Source of the DNA: Bacteroidaceae bacterium | Lineage (GTDB): Bacteria; Bacteroidota; Bacteroidia; Bacteroidales; Bacteroidaceae | Direction of reading: 5' to 3' | DNA length: 64,000 bases | Assembly: GCA_017552435.1 (NCBI GenBank) | Contig: JAFZPZ010000019.1 | Coordinates: 38,123 to 102,122 of the forward strand | Shown here: one piece after another, positions 5,915-37,160 of the stretch | Numbering within the stretch: position 1 is the stretch's first letter | How the letters are laid out: the number at the start of each line of letters is the position of its first letter | The notes under the pieces: generated by a model | The model's database searches: none | What the model saw: the letters and a program-made list of their open reading frames with translations, nothing else | What the model was told of the DNA's origin: nothing | Program-made: the position numbers and the translations under genes

Positions 5915-7285
5915 ATGAAAAAGATAATATTGTTTTTATATACATTAATCTTGTGTTTTCCACTCTTTAGCCAAGAAAGCACTCCCCTCTCTCTCGGAGA
6001 GGGGTCGGGGGTGAGGCGTCTCTCTCTCGCCGACTGCCGACGTATGGCACTTGAGCAGAACGAGAAAATCAAGGCAGCCGACAACGCGGTGGAGAAGGCA
6101 AAACTGGACCGACAGATAGCCTTCGCCCAGTATCTGCCCAAGGTGGACGGTTCCTTTACGATGGTCCACATGAAGAATATTGACATACTGGATCAGGAAT
6201 TCCTGGGATTGTCGCTGCAGACACGCGGCACCTATCTGGCTGGCATCAGTGTTACACAGCCACTCTATGTCGGAGGACAGATAACATCCGCTAACCGCCT
6301 GGCAAAAATCGGTCAAACCATCAGCGAGGAACAGCAGCGGAAGGTTCGCATGCAGGTCATCAGCGATGTTGACAATGCCTACTATACGCTCATAGCCGTG
6401 CGTTCGAAAGTGCAGATGCTGGAAGCATACTCCCGGCAGATGCAGGAGCTCTACGACCAGGTGAAACTCAGCGTAGATGTCCAGATGGCCACAGAAAACG
6501 ACCTTCTGCGTGTCTCTACCAAGCAGAACGAGGTTGATTACCAGCTGCAGAAAGCCCGCAATGGCGAACAGCTCTGCGGACTGGCTCTGGCCTACGTGAT
6601 TGGCACCGACCTGGAGCAGACCATCATTCCAACCGACACCGTCTTCAATGGTCAACTCTCAACTCTCAACCCTCAACTCTCAACTTTTAGCGAGGACATC
6701 TCTACACGTCCTGACCTGCTTTTGCTTCAGCAGAAGGTAAAGGCCAGCGAAGTACTGGTGAAGAAGTCACGTTCCAACTATCTGCCTACCGTAGCACTTG
6801 TGGGGCGGTATTCACACTATGACAATTTCAGATTGAAGGGTCACCTGAACCTGCCCAATTTCAGTCCGATGTCTATTAACCATACCATCAGCGGCGGTAA
6901 TCCTGTGGCGCTGCTTTCTGTCAGTCTGCCCATCTTCCATTGGGGCGCTGAGCTGAAGAAGGTCAAGAAGGCAAAACTTGACCTCAGCGATGCCAAGCTG
7001 GATTTGCAGCAGAACGAACGCGGCATGCGTGTTGAGGTGCGCAAGGCTGTCCAGAACATCACCGACGGCGAGCGTATGGTCGAGACCGCAACGGTGGGCC
7101 GTCAGCAGGCCGACGAGAACCTGCGTGTGATGCGCAAGAAATTTGACAACCAGATGTGCACGATGACCGACCTGCTGGATGCCCAGTCCCAGTGGCAGCA
7201 GGCTCGCAGCAACCTCATCGAGGCAGAGACGCAGCTGAAAATCTACGAGACCGAATATCTCCGCGTTACTGGCAAACTGGAATAA
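5915..7285 (+). CDS. TolC-family outer-membrane efflux channel
   Basis: 456 residues. Signal peptide MKKIILFLYTLILCFPLFSQ, then two OEP repeats with long coiled-coil helices, e.g. SLADCRRMALEQNEKIKAAD, ISVTQPLYVGGQ, DNAYYTLIAVRSKVQMLEAY in the first half and NERGMRVEVRKAVQNI and LLDAQSQWQQARSNLIEAET in the second. It is the exit duct of the RND system encoded just upstream. Two short repeats are embedded in frame: a family B element coding for about residues 22-35 (STPLSLGEGSGVRR) at the mature N-terminus, and an AT-rich repeat at 6648-6688 coding NGQLSTLNPQLSTF in the linker between the two OEP halves. Both lie where extra residues are tolerated. Confidence 0.92.
   Translation: MKKIILFLYTLILCFPLFSQESTPLSLGEGSGVRRLSLADCRRMALEQNEKIKAADNAVEKAKLDRQIAFAQYLPKVDGSFTMVHMKNIDILDQEFLGLSLQTRGTYLAGISVTQPLYVGGQITSANRLAKIGQTISEEQQRKVRMQVISDVDNAYYTLIAVRSKVQMLEAYSRQMQELYDQVKLSVDVQMATENDLLRVSTKQNEVDYQLQKARNGEQLCGLALAYVIGTDLEQTIIPTDTVFNGQLSTLNPQLSTFSEDISTRPDLLLLQQKVKASEVLVKKSRSNYLPTVALVGRYSHYDNFRLKGHLNLPNFSPMSINHTISGGNPVALLSVSLPIFHWGAELKKVKKAKLDLSDAKLDLQQNERGMRVEVRKAVQNITDGERMVETATVGRQQADENLRVMRKKFDNQMCTMTDLLDAQSQWQQARSNLIEAETQLKIYETEYLRVTGKLE
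5981..6018. repeat. Family B palindromic element inside the tolC-like gene
   Basis: ACTCCCCTCTCTCTCGGAGA then GGGGTCGGGGGTGAGG. It is translated as STPLSLGEGSGVR in frame with the outer-membrane channel and is the inverted partner of 5840-5876, about 105 bp away. Confidence 0.85.
6648..6688. repeat. AT-rich monotonous repeat (family C) inside the tolC-like gene
   Basis: Four near-copies of TCAACTCTCAAC/CCTCAACTCTCAAC are read in frame as NGQLSTLNPQLSTF. Comparable TCAATGTTCAA-type runs occur between and inside other genes in this window. Confidence 0.7.
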
Positions 7286-7338
7286 AATGCCACGTGTACC
7301 GGATAAAGAACAAATAATAATAATAATACATCAAGAAA

Positions 7339-8316
7339 ATGGGAAAAATAAAAACTATCGGAATTCTGACATCAGGCGGCGACGCCCCCGGCATGAACGC
7401 AGCCATTCGTTCCGTAACAAGAGCTGGAATATATAATGGTTTCAACATCAAAGGTATCTACCGAGGCTATGAAGGACTCATCAATGGTGAGGTGAAAGCG
7501 TTTTCCACCGAGGATGTGTCGGGAATCATCTCTCGCGGTGGTACTATTCTGAAAACTGCACGAAGTAAGGATTTCATGACACCCGAAGGCAGACAGAAAG
7601 CGTTTGAAACCTGTCAGCGCGAGGAAATTGATGCACTTGTAATCATCGGCGGAAACGGTTCTCTGTCCGGAGCCCGTATATTCGCTGAGGAATTCGACTT
7701 CCCAATCATTGGATTGCCCGGCACCATCGACAATGACCTTTACGGCACCGATGCCACTATCGGCTATGATACCACCATGAACACCATCATGGATTGTGTG
7801 GACCGCATCCGCGACACAGCCAATTCACACGAACGAATCTTCTTTGTTGAAGTAATGGGACGCGAGGCAGGATACTTAGCCCAAAACACAGCCATTGCTT
7901 GCGGAGCAGAAGCCGCTATCATTCCTGAAGATATGACTGATGCCGACCAGTTGGCCGAATTCATGCATCGAGGCATCCGAAAGTCCAAGAAGTCATGTAT
8001 CGTCATCGTATCTGAAAGTCAAAAGTGCGGTGCCCTCTACTATGCCGATCGTGTGAAGAAGGAGTTCCCTGGTTTCGACGTGCGTGTTTCTATCCTTGGT
8101 CACCTACAGCGCGGCGGCAGTCCGTCAGCCCGCGACCGCGTCCTTGCCAGTTGCATGGGCGTAGGAGCCATCGAGGCCATCAAGCAGGGCCAGCGCAACG
8201 TGATGATAGGCTATCGCTTTAACGACGTGGTCTATGTACCCTTCAGTGAGTGCATCCGCACAGACAAACCTTTCGACAAGCGCCTCATCAGGGTGCTCGA
8301 TGAACTGAGCATCTAA
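7339..8316 (+). CDS. pfkA: ATP-dependent 6-phosphofructokinase
   Basis: 325 residues, the usual size of the bacterial group A enzyme, which phosphorylates fructose 6-phosphate to fructose 1,6-bisphosphate in glycolysis. The ATP-binding start [17 protein letters not shown], the glycine-rich [11 protein letters not shown], the catalytic loop [12 protein letters not shown] with the general-base Asp, and MGREAGYLA with [11 protein letters not shown] (fructose-phosphate binding) are all present. Gly follows the first motif as in ATP-using rather than PPi-using forms, so ATP is inferred. The gene precedes a GH13 glucosidase gene by 16 bp and heads the stretch of alpha-glucan and partner-switching genes. 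Confidence 0.95.
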
Positions 8317-32996: not shown

Positions 32997-33770
32997 CTAT
33001 CGGATGTTGCCGCGTATCTTTGTGAGGTAAGCATTGAGTGCTTCCTCGTCGCGGTCGTCTATTATCTGTATCAGTTCTTTCAGTTCCGAGCGAATGCCTT
33101 CGACGTGTGCCTTTGTGCGTGGGTTGAAGAGTATCTCGCGCAGTAGCGTGTCGTCCTCTCCCAAAACACCTCTGGCTATCTTCAGATGCCGCTTGAACGT
33201 TGTGCCGGGTGCATCCTGATGCTTCATGACAGCCGAGAAGACGAAGGTGCTGACGAAGGGCACAGACAGACTGTAGGCCATTGCTTCGTCGTGTTCGTCG
33301 AAGCTGTATTCATGAACATTCAGCCCCAGACGGCGATAAAGGTCCAGGAAGAAGATGCGTCCCATATAGTCTCCTTCGTTGATGACAATGGCATTCTCCG
33401 AAGAGAGCGCTCCGAGGTTGGCAAACGTGGGGCCGAACATCGGGTGTGTCGAGACATAGCGTCGGCCTGTCTGCTCGTAGAAATCCTTGAGACCGGTCTT
33501 GACCGAAGAAATGTCCGAGATGATGCAATCATTCGGCAAGCAGGGAATGACTTGCCGGAAGACATCGATGGTGTATTTCAGCGTCACAGCATTGATGACA
33601 AGTTCGGGTTTGAATTCCCGTATCTCGTCGAGTGTCGTGAAGCGTTGCGTATTATAGAGGAAGCGCATCCGGCGCGCATCAATCTCATAGACAGCGCATT
33701 CGTGGTCGAAGGAAAGGACATCCGTAAAGAACGAGCCCATCTTGCCTGCTCCGAGAATCAATATTTTCAT
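32997..33770 (-). CDS. tyrA: Prephenate dehydrogenase
   Basis: 257 residues. Rossmann start MKILILGAGKMGSFFTDVLS, then NAVTLKYTIDVFRQVIPCLP, ISDISSVKTGLKDFYEQTGR and the catalytic HPMFGPTFANL. It oxidises prephenate to 4-hydroxyphenylpyruvate, the tyrosine branch. No ACT domain is attached, so there is no obvious built-in tyrosine-binding regulatory site. It is the last gene of the pheA operon and ends 3 bp from the convergent FKBP-like gene, leaving almost no room for a separate terminator. Confidence 0.92.
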   Translation of the reverse strand: MKILILGAGKMGSFFTDVLSFDHECAVYEIDARRMRFLYNTQRFTTLDEIREFKPELVINAVTLKYTIDVFRQVIPCLPNDCIISDISSVKTGLKDFYEQTGRRYVSTHPMFGPTFANLGALSSENAIVINEGDYMGRIFFLDLYRRLGLNVHEYSFDEHDEAMAYSLSVPFVSTFVFSAVMKHQDAPGTTFKRHLKIARGVLGEDDTLLREILFNPRTKAHVEGIRSELKELIQIIDDRDEEALNAYLTKIRGNIR

Positions 33771-33823: not shown

Positions 33824-34882
33824 TTACTTATTTATTATCTCCATTTGCTGGCGTACACTCTCTTCGTGGATGTGCTCGAAGATGTTCTTGATGCAAAGCG
33901 TATCGATGCCGAGCAGCGAACCCTGTGCGCCGCGCTTGTCCAAAATCTCGCTGTAGCGGCGGGTCTGCACAATGGTTATGCCATTCTCTTTTTTGTACTC
34001 GCCGATGCTGCGGCAGATTTTCATGCGTTTGGCGAGCAGGTCGATGAGATCGTTGTCGATTTCGTCTATCTCCTTACGCAGGTCCTTCAGCGTGTCGGTG
34101 TGTTCCGTCGTGTCGCGGAAGATGAGGCGCGAAACGATGAAGTCGAGCACCTCGGGTGTTACCTGCTGTGCAGCATCGCTCCAAGCCTTGTCGGGATCAC
34201 AATGACTCTCCACGATGAGTCCGTCGAAGCCCAGGTCCAATGCCTGTTGGCAAAGTGGAGCAATCAGGTCGCGCCGACCGCTGATGTGGCTCGGGTCGCA
34301 CACAACAGGCAGTTCGGGCAGGCGGCGTTTCAGTTCGATGGGAATCTGCCACATCGGTTCGTTGCGGTACAGTTTCTTTTCATAACTGCTGAAGCCGCGG
34401 TGAATGGCACCGAGTTTCGTAATGCCTGCGCCGTTGATACGCAGAAGGGCACCAATCCAAAGCTCGAGGTCGGGGTTGACGGGGTTCTTGACGAGCACCG
34501 TTGCATCTGTGCCTTTGAGGGCATCGGCAAGTTCCTGTACTGCGAAGGGATTGGCTGTGGTGCGGGCTCCGACCCAGAGAATGTCGATGCCGTACTTCAG
34601 GGCCAACTCCACATGCTTTGGCGTTGCCACTTCCGTAGCGACAAGCATGCCTGTTTCCTTCTTGACCCGGGCCATCCAGGGGAGAGCCGGTTCACCGTGT
34701 CCTTCGAAGCCGCCCGGCTTTGTGCGCGGTTTCCAGACTCCGGCTCGGAAGATGTGGCAGCCTTTGCCGGCCAGCTGCTTGGCGGTTGTTATCACTTGTT
34801 CTTCTGTCTCAGCGCTGCAAGGGCCAGCGATGATGAAGGCTCGTTCCTGATCACTTGGCAAGTTTAGGGGTTGTAGTTCCAT
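33824..34882 (-). CDS. Bifunctional DAHP synthase / chorismate mutase
   Basis: 352 residues from MELQPLNLPSDQ (ATG at 34882); a longer frame upstream has no coding character. The N-terminal part is a type I-beta (AroF/KdsA-like) 3-deoxy-7-phosphoheptulonate synthase: AFIIAGPCSAETEEQVI, GIDILWVGARTTANPFAVQE, VLVKNPVNPDLELWIGALLR, CDPSHISGRRDLI. The C-terminal 90 residues are an AroQ chorismate mutase (LRKEIDEIDNDLIDLLAKRM, then YSEILDKRG). It supplies both the entry step of the shikimate pathway and the conversion of chorismate to prephenate. The fusion is common in Bacteroidetes. Confidence 0.93.
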   Translation of the reverse strand: MELQPLNLPSDQERAFIIAGPCSAETEEQVITTAKQLAGKGCHIFRAGVWKPRTKPGGFEGHGEPALPWMARVKKETGMLVATEVATPKHVELALKYGIDILWVGARTTANPFAVQELADALKGTDATVLVKNPVNPDLELWIGALLRINGAGITKLGAIHRGFSSYEKKLYRNEPMWQIPIELKRRLPELPVVCDPSHISGRRDLIAPLCQQALDLGFDGLIVESHCDPDKAWSDAAQQVTPEVLDFIVSRLIFRDTTEHTDTLKDLRKEIDEIDNDLIDLLAKRMKICRSIGEYKKENGITIVQTRRYSEILDKRGAQGSLLGIDTLCIKNIFEHIHEESVRQQMEIINK

Positions 34883-34907
34883 ATGATTATTTCTTTTCGA
34901 TATTTCG

Positions 34908-36098
34908 TTATTTCGACATGTTTTTAATTCTTTCCAGAGCTTCGGCGAATTTGTCATCCTTCGCGCAGAGGCTGATGCGGATGTAGCGACTGCCATTTGA
35001 GCCGAAGATGAAGCCCGGCGTGATGAAGACGCGAGCCTCGTGCAGGACGCGCTCTGTGAGTTCCTCCACATTGTCGTAGCTGTCGGGGATGCGTCCCCAC
35101 AGGAACATGCCTGTCTGCTCGGGGTCGTACTGACACCCCAGTGTCTGCATGATTTCTTCCGCCATCCGTCGGCGGTTCGCGTAGGTCTGCACGTTCGCCT
35201 GTCTGTGCCATTCGTCCGTATTATCGTAGGCCGTCGCTGCTGCCAGCTGGATGGCGCGGAAAGTACCGCTGTCGATGTTGCTCTTCACCTTCAGAATCCA
35301 CTCGACGAACTGTGCGTTGGTGGCAAGCATGCCGACGCGCCAGCCAGGCATGTTGTGGCTCTTCGACATCGAATTGAACTCGATGCAGCATTCCTTTGCT
35401 CGCGGCACTTGCAGGATGGACAGGCGTTCGCCCTCGTTCAGAATGAAGCTGTAGGGATTGTCGTTGACCACGATGATGTTGTGGCGCAAAGCGAAATCGA
35501 CGAGCTTCTCGTAGGTTTCCTTGCGAGCCTTTGCGCCTGTCGGCATGTTGGGGTAGTTCGTCCAAAGAAGTTTCACGCGACTCAGGTCCATCTTTTCCAA
35601 AGCGTCGAAGTCCGGCTGCCAGCTGTTCTCCGGAAGCAGGTCGTAGTTCACTATCTTGGCTCCGAGCAGTTTGCTCAGGCTTGTGTATGTCGGATAGCCC
35701 GGATTCGGGACGAGAACCTCTTCTCCGGGATTGACGAAAGCCAGCGTGACGTGCAGGATGCCCTCCTTGCTGCCGATGAGGGGCTGTATCTCGGTCTTCG
35801 GGTCGAGCTCTACGCCATACCATCTCTTGTAGAAGCGGGCCATTGCGGTGCGCAGTTCGGGGATGCCGACTGTTGGCTGGTAGCCGTGGGCGGTGGGTTT
35901 CTGAGCCTCCCGACAGAGGGTTTCGATGGTCTCTGGCGAAGGCGGCATATCGGGACTTCCGATGGCCAGGCTGATGATGTCCATCCCTTGAGCATTCATA
36001 GCCGCAACCTCTTTCAACTTGCGGCTGAAATAGTACTCCTTGACGTCGGCAAGGCGCTCTGCCGGCCTGAAATTCAATTCACTATTCATAATGTACAA
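34908..36098 (-). CDS. Class I/II aminotransferase of the Phe/Tyr operon
   Basis: 396 residues from the ATG at 36098, 7 bp after pheA; an ATG at 36089 (MNSELNFRP) is an equally good start. PLP enzyme motifs: SLAIGSPDMPPSPETIETLC, LVPNPGYPTYTSL, NYPNMPTGA, VVNDNPYSFIL, the PLP-Lys motif EFNSMSKSHNMPGWRVGML, and the C-terminal GSRYIRISLCA. In this context it should transaminate phenylpyruvate and 4-hydroxyphenylpyruvate (or prephenate) to the aromatic amino acids; the substrate is inferred from the operon, not from residues. Confidence 0.9.
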   Translation of the reverse strand: MYIMNSELNFRPAERLADVKEYYFSRKLKEVAAMNAQGMDIISLAIGSPDMPPSPETIETLCREAQKPTAHGYQPTVGIPELRTAMARFYKRWYGVELDPKTEIQPLIGSKEGILHVTLAFVNPGEEVLVPNPGYPTYTSLSKLLGAKIVNYDLLPENSWQPDFDALEKMDLSRVKLLWTNYPNMPTGAKARKETYEKLVDFALRHNIIVVNDNPYSFILNEGERLSILQVPRAKECCIEFNSMSKSHNMPGWRVGMLATNAQFVEWILKVKSNIDSGTFRAIQLAAATAYDNTDEWHRQANVQTYANRRRMAEEIMQTLGCQYDPEQTGMFLWGRIPDSYDNVEELTERVLHEARVFITPGFIFGSNGSRYIRISLCAKDDKFAEALERIKNMSK

Positions 36099-36105
36099 TT
36101 ATTTT

Positions 36106-36948
36106 CTAAACGCTCTGTCTTCCGCTCTCGTAAATACCAAGTTGTTTAAGTTCCCGAGTGAGCGGACTGATGGCATTGATGGCCTGACGGTAACGCTTCT
36201 CGTCCTCGAAGGAGAGGTCGATATAGAACATATATTGCCACTCCTGGCCGATGATGGGGAGCGACTGGATTTTTGTCAGATTGAGTTTATAGAACGAGAG
36301 GACGGACAGGATGGCGCTGAGGCTGCCTTCCTCGTGAGGCAGCGTGAAGACCAGGCTGGATTTGTTGATAGGCCTCGTGTTGCGGATTGCCGTTGCTTTC
36401 TCGGGGTGAGCCAGAACGAGGAAACGTGTGAAGTTGTGCTTGTTCGTCTCGATGCCTTCCTGCAGGATCTTCATGCCGTAGATCTGGGCTGCGTCGCGAT
36501 GACAGATAGCCGCATGTCCGTGTCTCTGTTCCCTGCTGATGTCGGCTGCGGCTCCGGCTGTATCGACAACCTCGACCACCTTCAGGTTCTGGTGGCGCGA
36601 GAGGAAGTTGCGGCATTGCATCAGAGCGACGGGATGAGAGTTAACTTCCGTTATGTCTTCCCAGCTTTCGCCAGGCAGGCACATGATGCTGTGGCTGATG
36701 CGAAGTTTATGCTCTCCTACGATAGTCATTCCGCTGTCGCGCAGCAGCTCGTAGTTGTGGAGCAGACTGCCGGCGATGGTGTTCTCGATGGCCATAAGGC
36801 CCAGCATATCCGGCGCGCCCTTCAGCCGGGCGAACATCTCCTCGAAAGTGTCGCAGCAGACCAGTTCCACCTCCTCGTTCTCGAAGAAGCGATGAGCAGC
36901 GATATCGTGGAAACTGCCCTTGATGCCTTGTATTGCTATCCGTTTCAT
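36106..36948 (-). CDS. pheA: Prephenate dehydratase
   Basis: 280 residues. Catalytic domain: IAIQGIKGSFHDIAAHRFF, MLGLMAIENTIAGSLLHNYE, AAICHRDAAQIYGM and the TRF motif HNFTRFLVLA. The C-terminal ACT domain begins KSSLVFTLPHEEGSLSAILS. The segment aligned with the phenylalanine-binding ESRP motif of other enzymes reads KIQSLPIIG, and the GALV position reads GSLS, so feedback control by Phe may be weak. The gene is not fused to chorismate mutase, which is on the DAHP synthase instead. It is the first structural gene, directly behind an attenuator. Confidence 0.94.
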   Translation of the reverse strand: MKRIAIQGIKGSFHDIAAHRFFENEEVELVCCDTFEEMFARLKGAPDMLGLMAIENTIAGSLLHNYELLRDSGMTIVGEHKLRISHSIMCLPGESWEDITEVNSHPVALMQCRNFLSRHQNLKVVEVVDTAGAAADISREQRHGHAAICHRDAAQIYGMKILQEGIETNKHNFTRFLVLAHPEKATAIRNTRPINKSSLVFTLPHEEGSLSAILSVLSFYKLNLTKIQSLPIIGQEWQYMFYIDLSFEDEKRYRQAINAISPLTRELKQLGIYESGRQSV

Positions 36949-36950
36949 CT

Positions 36951-36986
36951 TAAAAAGAAATCCCGCTTCACCATGTGAGCGGGATT
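36951..36986 (-). terminator. Attenuator terminator before pheA
   Basis: On the minus strand ATCCCGCTCAC (36985-36975) and GTGAAGCGGGAT (about 36971-36960) form a stem with a small loop, followed by TTCTTTTT, only 3 bp before the pheA ATG. A terminator placed before the first gene implies conditional readthrough. Its 5' arm can alternatively pair with GTGAAGCGGG at 37043-37034. Confidence 0.85.
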
Positions 36987-37033
36987 GTATGTATGTTGTT
37001 TATGTGTTATACCTTATTATATATATACGACGA

Positions 37034-37043
37034 CCCGCTTCAC
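37034..37043 (-). promoter_or_regulatory. Antiterminator segment of the pheA attenuator
   Basis: GTGAAGCGGG, 1 nt after the leader stop codon, is an exact copy of the 3' arm of the terminator (GTGAAGCGGG at about 36971-36962). It can therefore compete for the 5' arm CCCGCTCAC with a single bulged A. A ribosome finishing the leader would cover it; one stalled at Phe or Tyr codons would leave it free. Confidence 0.75.
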
Positions 37044-37044
37044 T

Positions 37045-37104
37045 TCATTTGCTAAAGTAAAAGTAATAATAAAAGCCGAAGAAGGAATTGCGGTTCTGTG
37101 TCAT
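37045..37104 (-). CDS. Phe/Tyr-rich leader peptide of the pheA operon
   Basis: 19 codons: MTQNRNSFFGFYYYFYFSK, with Phe at positions 8, 9, 11, 15, 17 and Tyr at 12, 13, 14, 16. Nine of the ten codons from 8 to 17 are the end products of the operon. A purine-rich AAAGAAAG lies just before the ATG, and a promoter 20 bp upstream would start the transcript close to it. The composition, position and alternative hairpins match leader peptides of ribosome-mediated attenuation in enterobacteria (pheL, pheM). It is too short to be found by normal gene callers. I know of no description for this order, but could not search. Confidence 0.85.
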   Translation of the reverse strand: MTQNRNSFFGFYYYFYFSK

Positions 37105-37123
37105 CTTTCTTTGTTTTCGGGTG

Positions 37124-37160
37124 CAAATTTAATACAATTCTTTTATTCAGCCAAGCAAAA
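37124..37160 (-). promoter_or_regulatory. Promoter of the pheA operon
   Basis: On the minus strand TAAATTTG (37131-37124) is the -7 element, with TTTG (37159-37156) 24 bp upstream, somewhat wider than usual. Transcription should begin about 37118, leaving about 14 nt before the leader ATG. Confidence 0.65.

Follow-up and report, generated by a model that had tools for sequence, protein, structure and literature searches.

A putative Phe/Tyr attenuator ahead of the pheA operon in a Bacteroidaceae genome and its conservation among Bacteroidia

The window analysed here, a stretch of 64,000 nt from a Bacteroidaceae bacterium, carries ahead of its pheA-aminotransferase-DAHP synthase/chorismate mutase-tyrA operon a short unit that we read, with high confidence, as a ribosome-mediated transcription attenuator predicted to sense charged tRNA-Phe and tRNA-Tyr. 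The first-pass annotation of this DNA had proposed attenuation by Phe and Tyr, and the parts of the unit, its conservation, its pairing and its spacing lend support to that proposal. The operon is very probably switched on when Phe or Tyr runs short.

From these features we infer leader translation, ribosome stalling, coupling, termination in vivo and an amino-acid response, in the following form. Transcription would begin just upstream of the leader ORF, with a ribosome trailing RNA polymerase through the leader. When Phe- or Tyr-tRNA is short, this ribosome would stall in the run of Phe and Tyr codons and its leading edge would come no further than GTGAAGCGGG (segment 2), which would then be free to capture the CCCGCTCAC arm as it emerges, so that the terminator is blocked and the operon transcribed. 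When both charged tRNAs are plentiful, the ribosome would cover GTGAAGCGGG, the terminator would form and transcription would stop ahead of pheA.

The unit and its operon in the window

The sequence bears out the parts that the first-pass annotation had listed (Table 1). The 19-codon leader with five Phe and four Tyr among codons 8-17 is exact, Phe standing at codons 8, 9, 11, 15 and 17 and Tyr at codons 12, 13, 14 and 16. The promoter claimed upstream of it is present, base by base, as a promoter-like TAnnTTTG, which we take to be the Bacteroidota promoter consensus, reading TAAATTTG as such. The terminator placed 3 bp ahead of pheA occupies 36986-36952, its T tract ending 3 nt before the pheA ATG. 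The element behind the leader stop, said to duplicate the terminator 3' arm and to be able to pair with the 5' arm, recurs as an exact second copy at 36971-36962, inside that 3' arm, and the pairing is supported. An A/T-rich linker of 47 nt separates segment 2 from the terminator hairpin. Within this linker a ATAAGGTATA-like stretch is conserved in the close relatives L001, L002, L004-L010, L032 and L061, and the first unit of the divergent L060 holds a similar word.

Table 1. Positions of the unit and of the operon genes in the window
Feature	Position	Strand	Details
Bacteroidota-type promoter, predicted	37124..37154	-	TTG 37154-37152, 20 nt, TAAATTTG 37131-37124
Leader peptide ORF, 19 codons + TGA	37045..37104	-	MTQNRNSFFGFYYYFYFSK; ATG at 37104; counterparts in 191/221 upstream regions
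Regulatory codons 8-17	37054..37083	-	5 Phe, 4 Tyr, 1 Gly; read from sequence
Anti-terminator arm (segment 2)	37034..37043	-	GTGAAGCGGG; pairs with terminator 5' arm
Candidate RNA polymerase pause site	37028..37038	-	G-10 Y-1 G+1, minimal three-base match only
Terminator 5' arm (segment 3)	36975..36986	-	AATCCCGCTCAC; common to anti-terminator and terminator
Intrinsic terminator, predicted	36952..36986	-	hairpin AATCCCGCTCAC-ATG-GTGAAGCGGGATT 36986-36959, then TTTCTTTTT to 36952
pheA, prephenate dehydratase	36106..36948	-	Pfam PF00800 2.7e-55; ATG at 36948
Class I/II aminotransferase	34908..36098	-	Pfam PF00155 3.4e-64
DAHP synthase fused to chorismate mutase	33824..34882	-	Pfam PF00793 1.6e-41, PF01817 4.9e-23
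tyrA, prephenate dehydrogenase	32997..33770	-	Pfam PF02153 2.5e-10

The Pfam domains of the four genes agree with the gene order given in the first pass, and the operon genes serve Phe and Tyr synthesis, matching the leader codons. The top NCBIfam rows for the aminotransferase are LL-diaminopimelate aminotransferase-like and fall below the cut-off. The frame of the DAHP synthase/chorismate mutase gene (33824-35071) stays open 5' of where the gene probably starts, and so far that it runs into the aminotransferase gene's end. The full order recurs in 71 of the best 80 loci listed from the named genome collection, the other nine holding the first one to three genes only.

Runs of this composition are rare in the window and not confined to this leader. 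Among 212 pieces of 600 bases (both strands) only three reach at least 7 Phe/Tyr in 12 codons; the pheA leader scores highest with 9 and the other two reach 8 and 7, so composition alone is not unique. A short Tyr/Phe-rich ORF with 8 in 12 codons, beginning MYYYYYLFF, lies at 7201-7800 of the window on the minus strand. A genome search with TWY x7 returned five matches against seven for the reversed control pattern; besides the leader, the other four fall in one run (G000:C5:22112-22141), an open frame in which no start codon was found and which is probably not a leader. A search for a His attenuator by CAY x5 gave 15 matches, eight of which were examined as loci, and L245, L246, L251 and L252 among them are not leader-like.

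The leader RNA (174 nt) has a folding energy of -37.9 kcal/mol, whereas shuffled sequences average -25.7 +/- 3.7 and none of 200 is as good; the comparison with relatives, below, is much stronger evidence. With the transcript extended to the 5' arm, a free segment 2 gives a fold of -14.5 kcal/mol that runs through the anti-terminator, and a covered one gives -1.5. When the 3' arm is included as well, the terminator is the most stable fold at equilibrium in both ribosome positions, and thus the choice between the two structures would be kinetic.

Conservation, pairing and spacing among relatives

PheA was sought in 81 genomes (the window's own, 48 of the same genus and 32 of the order), 61 of which were positive, and in further surveys that found it in 53 of 119 genomes of the order and 128 of 148 of the phylum; a named genome collection contributed the best 80 loci listed. 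Upstream DNA came from 60 of the 61 genomes of the first survey, from the 53 of the order and from 50 of the 128 of the phylum. These 50 comprise 30 returned as loci, among them the window's own genome, and 20 chosen by hand. Outside the class, 18 of the 95 genomes with a PheA match were examined. After setting aside two of the 239 loci for too little upstream DNA and 16 as repeats, 221 distinct upstream regions were left. We scored a leader as an ORF within 600 nt upstream holding at least 6 Phe/Tyr among 12 codons.

By this rule 191 of 221 pheA upstreams have a Phe/Tyr-rich ORF, and 184 still do at a threshold of at least 7. The stricter threshold is passed by 4/221 reverse complements and 6/1105 dinucleotide shuffles, besides the three window pieces mentioned above; at the looser one the controls are less clean (27/221 and 41/1105). 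Leaders (at least 6) occur in 39/45 upstreams of the same genus, 15/15 of families of the order, 33/37 of the order survey, 73/75 from the best 80 loci listed of the named collection, 29/29 in the first part of the phylum survey and 2/5 of the remaining class loci, and in 0/15 of the other-class loci L225-L239. Phocaeicola vulgatus, Bacteroides fragilis, B. xylanisolvens and Paraprevotella xylaniphila carry the leader, as do same-class genomes outside the order in the phylum survey. A terminator hairpin with a T tract follows 188 of the 191 leaders; L033, L100 and L131 have the ORF and no terminator by our T-run rule, and were left out of the pairing counts. Leader, terminator and a pairing at or below -11 kcal/mol occur together in 171/221 upstreams and in 0/663 shuffled ones. 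The first-pass annotation had staked its reading on conservation of the Phe/Tyr run and of the duplicated element, and in this upstream comparison both are kept across genus, order and class.

In the 188 leaders, Phe makes up 39% of the 12 codons to the run end, Tyr 34% and Trp 1.3%. Of these leaders 183 contain both Phe and Tyr, five Phe only and none Tyr only, while 29 also contain Trp. The first pass had remarked that mixed Phe and Tyr content fits an operon making both amino acids. A selected alternation of Phe and Tyr at the end of the run was considered and rejected: both stand in the last two codons in 106 of 109 near loci (57.6 expected) but in only 36 of 79 divergent loci (35.5 expected), so that the pattern may be inheritance only.

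In 158/188 loci a TAnnTTTG occurs no more than 75 nt ahead of the leader start, against 7/186 in a control stretch 150-225 nt upstream and 0/188 in the 75 nt that follow the run. This placement argues against a start site within the leader, and also against transcription starting downstream of 37045, the other ground on which the first pass would have given up its reading.

Pairing of segment 2 with the terminator 5' arm averages -16.9 kcal/mol over the 188 loci (mean z -3.9), and at most 5 of 100 dinucleotide shuffles match it in 167 of them, the other 21 failing this test. In the 79 divergent loci the energies of own pairs sum to -1246, against -790 +/- 24 for permuted partners, the lowest of 20000 permutations being -898; at the median divergent locus the own arm is equalled by 3.8% of foreign arms. 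The exact complementary words vary by lineage, with 105 distinct words of median length 8 nt and types such as GCGGG, GCGAG, ACGGG, CCGGG and GACAGG, each with its matching arm. Own pairs far better than swapped ones, in words that differ by lineage, point to coevolution of the anti-terminator rather than mere inheritance. The parts, their spacing, their pairing and this coevolution can be read directly from the sequences and their comparison.

In 143/188 loci segment 2 begins 8-12 nt past the last Phe/Tyr codon, with a mode of 10. Counted from a codon's first base, the median distance is 13-14 nt for the last Phe, which would be about where a stalled ribosome ends, and 16 nt for the last Tyr. 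A ribosome held at the last Phe/Tyr codon would thus leave segment 2 roughly free, and one that reads on would cover it. The stop codon, by contrast, wanders, its end falling between 6 and 75 nt past the run. The GCGG core sits before or after the stop depending on the locus and occurs in all three leader frames (48, 22 and 43 of the 113 loci with the core). Where the leader runs through the element it encodes SNEVKR in some lineages and NCEAGSCV in others, whereas the window's leader stops before it. The wandering stop and the use of all three frames indicate that RNA, not peptide, is conserved at the element. What the comparison describes is a putative anti-terminator that would be mutually exclusive with the terminator whose 5' arm it shares, in a position suited to gating by a stalled ribosome.

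Two further features of classical attenuators are less distinct. A 1:2 hairpin of at least 5 pairs, in which the run end pairs with the bases that directly follow it, can be drawn in 103/109 near and 67/79 divergent loci; it lies above 95% of shuffles in 26/109 and 22/79 (48/188 together; mean z -1.1), or in 37/188 by another test (mean z -0.8). Synonymous-codon controls over the 186 of 188 loci usable for the codon and pause tests gave no sign of codon choice favouring this hairpin. Being just modestly above shuffles, the 1:2 hairpin is not established as the classical protector. As for pausing, relatives share a motif 3' of segment 2; aligned on the GCGG core, 104 loci give roughly GCGGGA.GTYGTRTGTA. 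For E. coli a pause consensus G-10 Y-1 G+1 was described, and it was noted in hisL and leuL (PMC9291695). This consensus falls across the segment 2 end in 139/186 loci, against 81.5 +/- 6.3 with shuffled downstream sequence; reading it as a pause assumes that Bacteroidota polymerase obeys it. Enrichment is also seen for G-N6-TRYG (82/186 against 21.3 +/- 4.8) and G-N6-TATG (48/186 against 6.8 +/- 3.0), whereas the full GGN6TGYG is rare (12/186 against 6.4) and shows no enrichment in divergent loci (3/78 against 2.0).

We weighed three other explanations against these data. The hairpin might act in translation, blocking ribosome binding at pheA until stalling in the leader frees it, with little termination of transcription, and the 3-nt gap between T tract and pheA ATG in the window would suit such control. 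Among the 188 loci, however, the terminator stem stands at very different distances from the pheA start (median 19 nt, 5-95% range about 2-111), hairpins with T tracts follow nearly every leader, and in one relative a whole gene separates leader from pheA, so we give translational control only a small chance. A T-box or riboswitch leader, binding tRNA or a metabolite and overlapped by an accidental ORF, would likewise be a structured leader ahead of an amino-acid operon. Rfam, however, yields no family at gathering score in the whole window, Bacteroid-trp (RF01692) and the amino-acid operon leader families included, and no T-box covariance match in window or leader. On the leader nothing comes near threshold; the only leader family to appear, Thr_leader, scores 13.8 bits where 55 are required. 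Conservation, moreover, lies in the peptide run and in pairing arms whose words differ between loci, and a T-box or riboswitch seems to us very improbable.

Least probable of all, to the point that we would hardly entertain it, is a plain terminator for upstream read-through beside a short ORF of no regulatory role, the similarity among relatives being inherited without function. Short ORFs and terminators are common, and two other pieces of the window likewise hold short Phe/Tyr-rich ORFs; yet the Phe/Tyr content, the coevolving pairing and the spacing stand far above their controls and contradict this reading, and a promoter-like motif lies inside the unit. Ribosome-mediated attenuation is the explanation that we retain.

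Upstreams without a leader, other classes and tandem units

Outside L225-L239, 15 of 206 upstreams lack the ORF within 600 nt (L003, L022, L031, L036, L038, L040, L084, L094, L152, L159, L167, L217, L220, L221 and L224). In L003 the leader stands 1.1 kb upstream and is separated from pheA by a methyltransferase-like gene, which the attenuator there may also control. L003 is a close relative (91% PheA identity) on the same contig as L062. L038 is cut by a contig end, segment 2 and terminator still being visible. For the 14 loci other than L003, the 234 to 4500 nt of upstream DNA searched held no convincing leader; L022, L084, L094, L152 and L159 had none across about 1.5 kb or more, and in L167 there is a single run of 6 Phe/Tyr, a borderline case, at a distance of 1.2 kb. 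Certain members of the class therefore seem, as far as their sequences tell, to manage without a Phe/Tyr leader. In 11 of the 15 a same-strand open frame reaches to less than 50 nt from pheA, so that pheA there may sit inside a longer operon. In L036 and L084 pheA lies immediately 3' of an open frame that, in our view, resembles the tryptophan synthase beta chain.

Among the 18 other-class upstreams, 15 are without leader and three (L172, L194 and L197) combine a leader with a Bacteroidia-type PheA. In a tree of 44 PheA proteins, the 15 leaderless other-class proteins stand together across one branch (100/99) and the three others fall among Bacteroidia; L172 and L227, members of the same family, lie on opposite sides of that branch. 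The simplest reading is that in these three pheA was likely transferred along with its attenuator.

Nine of the 221 upstreams (L054, L060, L149, L154, L156, L205, L208, L216 and L222) hold two complete units in series within the 600 nt searched, each with leader, segment 2 and terminator. Segment 2 pairs best with the arm of its own unit in 17 of these 18 units, the second unit of L222 being the exception. The candidates L032, L182 and L188 were rejected for weak pairing and the lack of a real terminator, and L173 and L211 are doubtful. We lean, by a little, towards a history in which Phe/Tyr attenuation is ancestral in Bacteroidia, moves with pheA to other classes and has been doubled repeatedly to give a steeper switch. 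If so, the doubled units would be two translation checkpoints in series for the same amino acids with largely separate pairing arms, and such natural tandem attenuators would offer a test of serial checkpoints.

Relation to known attenuators

The principle is that of classical, textbook attenuation, and the unit is known in kind. Attenuation requires a ribosome close behind RNA polymerase, and Bacteroidota genes mostly lack Shine-Dalgarno sites; the leader could serve as a direct test of transcription-translation coupling in Bacteroidota, and in abundant gut bacteria Phe and Tyr synthesis would come under a control that is concrete and predictable. In the literature searched, the Phe/Tyr unit, its anti-terminator, its spread and its tandem form are undescribed, though most subscription papers lay outside the search and a prior description is possible. 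A 2004 comparative study of attenuation reportedly mentions Bacteroidetes/Chlorobi in its abstract.

In E. coli the pheA leader is rich in Phe and not known to contain Tyr, and in the thr and ilvGMEDA attenuators one leader senses several end products of its operon. The present unit resembles the latter in its predicted multi-product sensing and differs in amino acids, phylum and RNA arms. pheA is named among the attenuated operons (PMC1183508); like the E. coli and Salmonella attenuator, ours would act ahead of pheA, but here Phe and Tyr codons are mixed about equally and a four-gene pheA-aminotransferase-DAHP/CM-tyrA operon follows a Bacteroidota-type promoter.

The first-pass annotation knew of no account of such a unit in Bacteroidales. 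We likewise found no description of it, but hints at the level of the phylum are in print: in Flavobacterium psychrophilum, clues to leader-peptide attenuation were reported before amino-acid operons, along with a structured 5' element upstream of pheA common to other Flavobacteriaceae (PMC9723704). That element shares gene and phylum with ours, while the Phe/Tyr leader, the anti-terminator, the tandem units and the wider distribution are absent from the portion of that account on which we draw. Leader-peptide-like sORFs were reported in B. thetaiotaomicron, in a main text that does not contain the word pheA (PMC7366714). The Bacteroid-trp motif (PMC2864571), from what the source gives of it, is likewise an RNA of Bacteroidetes, but is tied by name to trp genes and, as noted, has no Rfam match in the window. 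For the tandem form, the nearest parallel is the Salmonella mgtCBR operon, with tandem attenuators and two short leader ORFs (PMC3641672): there, in the part of that report used here, as in our doubled upstreams, two attenuators stand in series, but here both leaders are Phe/Tyr leaders placed before pheA.
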